From NCBI GenBank assembly GCA_011390785.1, contig JAABRR010000009.1, positions 1 through 64,000 on the forward strand: 64,000 bases of DNA, in the 5' to 3' direction. Below the pieces are notes generated by a model. The model did no database searches. It saw nothing but the letters and a program-made list of their open reading frames with translations, and was not told the DNA's origin. Shown one piece after another: positions 8,736 through 10,888 of this stretch. Made by a program: the position numbers and the translations under genes. Source of the stretch: Sphingobacteriia bacterium. GTDB lineage: Bacteria > Bacteroidota > Bacteroidia > Bacteroidales > UBA7960. The first letter of the stretch is position 1. Each line of letters starts with the position of its first letter.

Positions 8736-8814
8736 TGGAAGCTTCCAATTCCTCAGGAAGCTGGAAGTTCCTGCCGACCAAGGAACTGGAAACTTCGAAT
8801 AATTTCCAGCTTCC
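8736..8814. repeat. Nested inverted repeats / potential cruciform
   Basis: TGGAAGCTTCCA (8736-8747), GGAAGCTGGAA (8756-8766) with TTCCAGCTTCC (8804-8814), and AGTTCCT (8766-8772) with AGGAACT (8781-8787). Confidence 0.6.
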
Positions 8815-8820
8815 GGTTTC

Positions 8821-8842
8821 TAACCAACTGATCTAAGGAGGA
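8821..8842 (-). pseudogene. 5' fragment of tRNA-Asn (acceptor and D arm only)
   Basis: Reverse complement TCCTCCTTAGATCAGTTGGTTA matches the first 22 nt of the tRNA-Asn copies with one substitution, then the similarity ends. Confidence 0.75.
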
Positions 8843-8890
8843 ATAAAAAAAACCACCAAAACTATTCACAGAATTGGTGGTTTGTCGAGC

Positions 8891-8973
8891 TCCTCCTCAA
8901 GGACTCGAACCTTGGACCCTCTGATTAATCTCGTCAATATTGACGAGACTCTAACCAACTGAGCTAAGGAGGA
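8891..8973 (-). pseudogene. tRNA-Asn-like copy with palindromic replacement of the 5' anticodon arm
   Basis: Acceptor, D and T arms retained (TCCTCCT...AGGAGGA; GGTTCGAGTCC). CATCTGACTG is replaced by TCTCGTCAATATTGACGAGA (8929-8948). Confidence 0.8.
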
Positions 8974-9026
8974 ATAACCATAAAAAAACCACCAAAACAT
9001 TTTACAGAATTGGTGGTTTGCAGAGC
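8974..9026 (-). terminator. Rho-independent-type terminator in each spacer of the tRNA array
   Basis: Minus strand AAACCACCAATTCTGTAAAATGTTTTGGTGGTTTTTTT: inverted repeat plus T-run; repeated in spacers 8843-8890, 8974-9026, 9110-9162 and 9246-9298. Confidence 0.7.
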
Positions 9027-9109
9027 TCCTCCTCAAGGACTTGAACCTTGGACCCTCTGATTAATCTCGTCAATATTGACGAGACTCTAACCAACTGAGC
9101 TAAGGAGGA
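9027..9109 (-). pseudogene. tRNA-Asn-like copy with palindromic replacement of the 5' anticodon arm
   Basis: 83 nt; palindrome at 9065-9084; 136 bp from the neighbouring unit. Confidence 0.8.
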
Positions 9110-9162
9110 ATAACCATAAAAAAACCACCAAAACATTTTACAGAATTGGTGGTTTGCAGAGC

Positions 9163-9245
9163 TCCTCCTCAAGGACTTGAACCTTGGACCCTCTGATTAA
9201 TCTCGTCAATATTGACGAGACTCTAACCAACTGAGCTAAGGAGGA
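9163..9245 (-). pseudogene. tRNA-Asn-like copy with palindromic replacement of the 5' anticodon arm
   Basis: 83 nt, same sequence as 9027-9109; palindrome at 9201-9220. Confidence 0.8.
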
Positions 9246-9297
9246 ATAACCATAAAAAAACCACCAAAACATTTTACAGAATTGGTGGTTTGCAGAG

Positions 9298-9371
9298 CTC
9301 CTCCTCAAGGACTTGAACCTTGGACCCTCTGATTAACAGTCAGATGCTCTAACCAACTGAGCTAAGGAGGA
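9298..9371 (-). tRNA. tRNA-Asn (GTT)
   Basis: Reverse complement TCCTCCTTAGCTCAGTTGGTTAGAGCATCTGACTGTTAATCAGAGGGTCCAAGGTTCAAGTCCTTGAGGAGGA plus discriminator G; anticodon loop CTGTTAA; all four arms pair. Confidence 0.95.
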
Positions 9372-9390
9372 ATATTATTTTATTGAACCT

Positions 9391-9457
9391 GAACCTTGGA
9401 CCCTCTGATTAATCTCGTCAACATTGACGAGACTCTAACCAACTGAGCTAAGGAGGA
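9391..9457 (-). pseudogene. 3'-truncated tRNA-Asn-like copy with the palindrome variant
   Basis: 5' acceptor, D arm and palindrome TCTCGTCAATGTTGACGAGA (9413-9432); sequence diverges in the T arm (AAGGTTCAGGTTCAATAAAA) so the 3' acceptor strand is absent. Confidence 0.75.
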
Positions 9458-9604
9458 ATTTAAGAACATTACCTTCTATTTTGGAGATGCAAAATTAGTA
9501 TTTTTTTCTTTCCGCAAAAATTTTTTTCTCTTTTTTCCCCTTATTAACATAGAAAACCTGTTAAGTAACTACTTTTGCAAAGTATTTGTAAGAAAATTTA
9601 CTTT

Positions 9605-10888
9605 ATGCAACTGATTATCAAAGACAATTTACATGCTGTAAAAGCTTTCATCTTTAGCAAAATCTTGTTCAGTTTTGTTTCACGGTCGGTTTTTTTGTTT
9701 TTGTTGATCTATTTTATGGGTGTGCCAAGATTTGGAAAAAGCGACCGCTATTTCCAGGGCCAGCCTGCCAGTGCCGGTTTCTTTAATGTATTGTTTTTTT
9801 CTGAAGAAGAGCTTCGTTTTATCGATCATAAAATAACCAACCTGCTTCTTGAAAATAAATTTAACGGCAATGTGCTGATTGCCCGCTATGGGATGCTTAT
9901 CTATGAGCGTTCCTTCGGCTTCAGCTCTTTTCGTACTTCCGAACCTCTCGATCAGCAAACTACCTTTCAGCTGGCCAGTATCTCCAAAACCTTTACATCG
10001 GCAGCTGTGCTTATGCTACAACAGGATAGCCTGCTCACTATCGATGATCCGTTGAAGAATTATATTCCAGAGTTTCCCTACCCTGATATTACCATAAGGC
10101 AATTACTCAGTCATACATCTGGCCTGCAAAACTATATGTGGATGGTAGAACGCTACTGGAAAAAGGCAGTGCCTCCCACCAACGAAGACGTATTGCAGTT
10201 ATTTTTATCTTATCCGCGACCATTGAATTTTTCTCCGGGAACGCGATTTGATTATTCCAATACCGGGTTTGTTTTTTTAGGGTTACTCGTTGAAAGGGTT
10301 TCAGGACAAAGCTACGCTTCCTTCATTCAGGAGCGGATTTTTGACCCTTTGCAGATGGATCGGTCCTTTGTTCATGATCTGCAAAACCCTGTTGAAATGG
10401 AGAATCGTGCCTATGGCTATCGGCAGTGGCGAGGGCAGCATATCCTTATTCCTGACGATAAACTTGATGGCCCACTGGGAGATAAAGGGGTGTTTTCTTC
10501 TACCCACGACCTTTACAAATGGGACCAGGCTTTGCACCGAAGCGAATTGTTGTCATCAGATATATGGCAGATGGCTTTCGAAAACGCCCGGTTAAATAAT
10601 GATACAATGGTAGAGTATGGCATGGGATGGCGGTTGCAGGAATTTCTCGATAAAAAGATCGTACATCATCCGGGGCGTTGGCATGGTTTCCGCACCAGCT
10701 TTAAGCGTTTTATAGACGACCACACAACCATCATCGTTCTCAGCAACAATAATAGCAGTATCCTCGAAGTTATTGAAGGTATACAGGATATACTGTATTA
10801 TGACGAGAAAGAGATCTGGCTGGCCAATAATGAATGGGTAGAAAGCCCTCAGGACGATGAATTACCTGAATTAGAGCCCACTGAATAG
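9605..10888 (+). CDS. Serine hydrolase, beta-lactamase / class C PBP family
   Basis: SISKTFTSAA (SxxK), YSNTGFVFLG (YxN), HPGRWHGF near the C-terminus. ATG 9605 preferred over the track TTG. Confidence 0.85.
   Translation: MQLIIKDNLHAVKAFIFSKILFSFVSRSVFLFLLIYFMGVPRFGKSDRYFQGQPASAGFFNVLFFSEEELRFIDHKITNLLLENKFNGNVLIARYGMLIYERSFGFSSFRTSEPLDQQTTFQLASISKTFTSAAVLMLQQDSLLTIDDPLKNYIPEFPYPDITIRQLLSHTSGLQNYMWMVERYWKKAVPPTNEDVLQLFLSYPRPLNFSPGTRFDYSNTGFVFLGLLVERVSGQSYASFIQERIFDPLQMDRSFVHDLQNPVEMENRAYGYRQWRGQHILIPDDKLDGPLGDKGVFSSTHDLYKWDQALHRSELLSSDIWQMAFENARLNNDTMVEYGMGWRLQEFLDKKIVHHPGRWHGFRTSFKRFIDDHTTIIVLSNNNSSILEVIEGIQDILYYDEKEIWLANNEWVESPQDDELPELEPTE

Follow-up and report, generated by a model that had tools for sequence, protein, structure and literature searches.

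Free-standing homing endonucleases of the GIY-YIG family are represented in T-even phages by SegB (PMC13096335; PMC2988022), which amplifies a tRNA-Tyr/segB unit by means of (micro)homology that the tRNA shares with the 3' end of segB (PMC13096335). Here, we analyzed an array of tRNA-Asn gene copies in a 64,000-nucleotide (nt) stretch of Sphingobacteriia bacterium DNA (hereafter, the window), in which a short palindrome takes the place of one side of the anticodon arm in four copies. The array, which sits inside a 151-kb contig, is probably the decayed remnant of a GIY-YIG (SegB-like) homing-endonuclease element that parasitizes the tRNA-Asn gene and that has lost its open reading frame (ORF). 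SegB is the closest studied analogue of this element, with the likeness lying in function only: in both systems a GIY-YIG enzyme is encoded next to tRNA genes, tRNA and endonuclease are amplified in tandem, and the endonuclease gene has tRNA homology at its 3' end. Unlike SegB, the elements considered here are chromosomal, are found in Bacteroidota, encode proteins of ~100 amino acids (aa), occupy many tRNA types and carry partial tRNA copies that contain a foreign hairpin, and cleavage by their enzymes is presumed. Integrative elements that target tRNA genes through tyrosine integrases share with them the use of a tRNA gene as the site, a displaced 3' half and the preservation of an intact tRNA, but the elements described here have no integrase, are tiny and bear a hairpin and a second terminator on the displaced copy. 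REP/BIME-type repeats are likewise short palindromes present at multiple sites of a genome, whereas the present hairpins occupy fixed positions in partial tRNA copies beside GIY-YIG genes. When open-access literature was searched for hairpin-capped tRNA copies or for GIY-YIG elements located at tRNA genes of bacterial chromosomes, only SegB and fungal mitochondrial work proved relevant and no earlier description of such copies was returned, which is weak evidence of absence.

All coordinates refer to the window, and the array, including its palindromes, is read on the minus strand, which is the tRNA strand. An earlier reading made from the sequence alone (the sequence-only reading) had reported four palindrome-bearing tRNA-Asn copies around one intact gene. 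Sequence searches recovered this arrangement with small corrections, with 20-bp palindromes at 8929-8948, 9065-9084 and 9201-9220 and a one-base variant (TCTCGTCAATGTTGACGAGA) at 9413-9432. None are expected by chance (0 in 100 shuffles), in agreement with the proposal that neither chance nor random decay accounts for them. The intact tRNA-Asn(GTT) at 9298 (or 9297)-9371 matched the Rfam tRNA model (RF00005) with 71.9 bits, and no other complete tRNA-Asn was found in the genome (4.8 Mb); the hairpin copies had no match to this model at E ≤ 0.1. As originally described, the palindrome replaces tRNA-Asn nt 25-34 (CATCTGACTG), and RNA folding predicted a rod-like structure in which the palindrome forms an 8-bp stem and an AUAU loop. 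The three downstream copies (9161-9245, 9025-9109 and 8889-8973) retain nt 1-24 as well as all nucleotides from position 35 to the end; the claim that the copies keep all other arms holds for these three only, because the upstream copy at 9387-9459 (leader, nt 1-24, palindrome at 9432-9413, nt 35-48) lacks the T arm and 3' acceptor. The intact tRNA is followed by a terminator-like hairpin and T-run ending TTTTTTTATGG (9250-9291; compare loci L087, L088, L092 and L093), and the downstream copies have their own terminators at 9114-9155, 8978-9019 and, as a terminator copy, ~8846-8883. The repeated units at 8974-9109 and 9110-9245 agree at every base (136/136), as had been noted, and the unit at 8838-8973 matches both at 122/136.

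The same structure was found in 15 of 198 related genomes, among them that of the window, using a search pattern of tRNA flanks around a free middle, with different hairpins in the same place (TCCCGCACGTGCGGGA, TCCCGTACGTACGGGA, TCCCGATCCGTCGGGA and others). At several loci in seven genomes (G176, G153, G140, G007, G087, G177 and G021), ORFs with above-cut-off matches to PF01541 (GIY-YIG) were located either between the intact tRNA-Asn and a downstream hairpin copy or adjoining a hairpin copy. The ORF starts right after the T-run of the tRNA terminator, its C-terminus is encoded by a partial tRNA copy (...LAQLVRVPHVRD*, with the TAA of TTAATC as the stop), and a second terminator lies downstream of this hairpin-bearing copy. 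The relatives' proteins are ~100 aa long, chromosomally encoded and conserve the GIY-YIG motif residues Y5, Y16, G18, R26 and E63. For the ORF of G004, the closest solved sequences were the UPF0213-type GIY-YIG proteins 1zg2 and 1ywl, both weak matches (E 7.5e-05 and 0.0013), and nothing in the analysis linked these two proteins to tRNA genes.

Because the tRNA-Asn gene is divergent from a beta-lactamase-family gene (9575-10888, plus strand, in the window), the orthologous locus could be traced through the genus. It is occupied in G004 and G007 by a complete GIY-YIG ORF ending in a hairpin-tRNA tail; in G003 the ORF is deleted to MFYIYLFY ahead of the hairpin copy, in G005 it is decayed, and in G002 there is no ORF downstream and a hairpin copy upstream. 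The congeners thus carry both occupied and decayed or ORF-less alleles of a single locus, as is characteristic of a homing element. In the window, ATGGTT follows the terminator, with the ATG (9253-9251) at the position of the ORF start in the congeners, and the next copy comes after this. From this series we infer that the element in the window lost its ORF down to the ATG and that what was left of it was amplified, a reading that leans on the congeners as no GIY-YIG sequence remains in the window itself. The upstream disarmed copy also has counterparts in relatives.

In the mechanism we propose, the enzyme would cut the intact tRNA gene close to where the hairpin has taken over in the copies. 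The disarmed copies on both sides would escape cutting while sharing sequence with the break ends, and repair between the repeats could copy the element into empty alleles, amplify it in tandem or delete it. One intact tRNA would be retained by selection, and the hairpin may additionally stop the copies from acting as tRNAs. A SegB-type route to tandem arrays would be available here because the ORF itself ends, at its 3' side, in partial tRNA sequence.

Similar elements extend well beyond tRNA-Asn. A GIY-YIG query run over 344 genomes of the order and 299 across the phylum identified relatives in 80 and 45 genomes, respectively, with intact upstream tRNAs that include Asn, Val, Met, Thr, Asp, Ala, Pro, Arg, His, Phe and Gly; tandem elements were common in both surveys. 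Among 52 distinct elements with a recognizable displaced tRNA 3' end, the displaced copy had a broken anticodon arm in 47, a broken T arm in 26 and one or the other in 49, and 48 carried a hairpin with arms of at least 6 bp, a rate that applies to recognizable cases only because 31 more gave no displaced end by the criterion used. Outside the order, 15 of 16 recognizable cases had a hairpin. Arms of at least 7 bp were present in 36/51 displaced copies versus 4.1% of shuffles, and in 11/51 intact tRNAs, whose native arms can score. Copies of the 5' part were also found upstream of 33 of the 90 tRNAs with enough upstream sequence, 29 of them with a hairpin. The anticodon arm was the commonest hairpin position; when the anticodon loop was kept, the hairpin was usually in the D, T or variable region, with the position recurring per tRNA type. 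The protein tree, which is built on few columns and has many weakly supported forks, follows the target tRNA (22 label changes versus 46-59 when shuffled). Pairwise pN/pS values of tandem ORF copies were mostly 0.1-0.3; selection on the ORF is only suggested by these values because distant pairs are saturated.

Most palindromes of the relatives have the form TCCCG-N6-CGGGA with covarying stems: among 31 distinct 16-mers, 94.5% of stem cells are paired, 21 cells are double changes and the covariation score is reached by 0/500 shuffles, although the count overstates independence because the rows are related. One explanation, which appears rather unlikely, treats the palindromes as mobile or recurrent repeats in their own right: they would insert into DNA able to form hairpins (tRNA arms, other palindromes and integron attC-like sites) and be tolerated in displaced copies with no role in the element. 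Consistent with this, in most genomes searched TCCCG-N6-CGGGA was more frequent than its reversed control (28 vs 2, 30 vs 1 and 29 vs 4), counts that are partly inflated by tRNA copies and repeats. The same palindrome type occurs in the terminal structure of integron attC-like sites (GCCAAC...GTTGGC) at L058 1450-2600, which sit between toxin-antitoxin-like cassettes, and the exact 20-mer of the window lies in a similar attC-like repeat of the congener G010 (L030 1480-1560). Some palindromes are nested, with one inside the loop of another, in displaced tRNA-Asn copies of L126 and L119. Independent insertion fits poorly, however, with the confinement of the hairpins to the tRNA body (0/48 adjacent terminator copies have a large insertion), with their recurrent position per tRNA type or with stems kept paired by compensatory changes.

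That pairing, together with the frequency of the hairpin in displaced and upstream copies, would be expected if the hairpin were a functional structure that served as an end signal of the element. In DNA it could be a cruciform or a single-strand hairpin to which the GIY-YIG enzyme binds or which it cuts; in RNA it could control the transcript. This account is also doubtful, since the arm that carries the hairpin varies among tRNA families and replication-linked correction of palindromes could also preserve perfect stems.

For the homing-element interpretation, several observations remain unfavorable. The covariation suggests that the hairpin itself matters, beyond simple disruption of a cut site, and a single fixed cut site would not suit every target because some tRNAs have the hairpin in the D, T or variable region instead. 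Next to the ORF, the intact tRNA keeps the presumed target, which leaves the block on cutting unexplained; expression limited by readthrough could be such a block, but this is a guess. Within the window, no convincing GIY-YIG remnant was detected in the array beyond the ATG; its copies also retain the whole 5' half, which most downstream copies of relatives do not.

The remaining alternatives fare considerably worse. That the copies yield a tRNA-like RNA with no decoding role, such as the decoy for a tRNA-targeting enzyme suggested by the sequence-only reading, is very improbable: the three downstream copies, with their acceptor, D and T arms and terminator, could be transcribed, but they are not recognized by the Rfam model, most copies in relatives lack the acceptor half or T arm that a tRNA mimic needs, and the hairpin-bearing arm differs among tRNAs. 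The same reading had also proposed a mobile element at a tRNA-gene site, which survives as a candidate, in the form of integrase attachment sites copied through the array, which does not. tRNA genes are common integrase targets in general, but the gene linked to the copies in relatives encodes a GIY-YIG protein, making tyrosine-recombinase attachment sites a highly improbable explanation. Searches with Pfam identified no integrase among the eight ORFs around the array. A group I intron was rejected, as nt 25-34 are lost instead of interrupted and no Rfam intron match was obtained. An assembly or template-switching artefact, to which tandem repeats within a draft assembly would be prone, can be dismissed as scarcely credible for the structure in general because many independent genomes carry it at homologous sites with different, covarying hairpins; the exact copy number in the window is to be taken as provisional.

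Taken across the phylum, these elements may form a group of chromosomal tRNA-gene parasites in which the GIY-YIG enzyme, encoded beside an intact tRNA, marks its own ends with structured hairpins in disarmed copies, and which drive tandem amplification at essential tRNA loci. The hairpin would then be under selection, either as a self/non-self mark or as a signal for recombination; we offer this broader proposal tentatively, as one that falls somewhat short of probable. The homing-element interpretation would tie small GIY-YIG proteins, which are very common and uncharacterized, to a concrete target and a life cycle at tRNA genes, providing a chromosomal counterpart to phage SegB amplification and raising the question of whether a hairpin in a tRNA copy protects it from the enzyme. 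The elements would also account for tRNA-like pseudogenes, which may be reported by gene finders as unusual tRNAs. Some hairpin copies are named by ARAGORN as tRNA-Ile(tat) or tRNA-Leu(taa) (L078 1339-1416, L187 and L179), and annotation calls of this type are probably spurious.

The genome of the window holds further copies. There, a complete tRNA-Val GIY-YIG element carries the hairpin TCCCGATCTATAATCGGGA (L067), and ORF-less hairpin copies lie upstream of tRNA-Ser(GCT) and tRNA-Pro(TGG), beside which no GIY-YIG ORF was seen. At tRNA-Ser(GCT) (L247; G000:C19, ~21.3-21.9 kb), the anticodon arms of two upstream partial copies hold TCTCGCTAATATTAGCAAGA and TCTCGTTGGCACAACGAGA, and the single upstream partial copy of tRNA-Pro(TGG) has TCCCGATTTATGATCGGGA. 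A further series was noted elsewhere, at L008/L035 (G162:C11, 154-1060), where 11 tandem 79-bp hairpin-bearing 5' copies with several hairpin variants side by side precede one intact tRNA-Asn. A search of viral contigs for the exact palindrome gave no match.

Around the array, only the intact tRNA reached its Rfam cut-off; a plus-strand match to Plastid-ycf2 (32.4 bits, below the cut-off of 65.7) corresponds to the antisense of the tRNA. Upstream of the entire array is a promoter-like TAATTTTGC (9489-9497, minus strand), which resembles the Bacteroidota TAnnTTTG element and which we take to be a putative promoter; ACTAATTTTGC is also found upstream of tRNA-Asn in the congener loci L088, L092 and L093. 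The beta-lactamase-family gene is transcribed away from the array. At the opposite end, a fifth copy consists of the 5' part alone (~nt 1-24; 8819-8844, minus strand, with 96% identity over 8819-8842) and is followed by further imperfect inverted repeats at 8740-8815.
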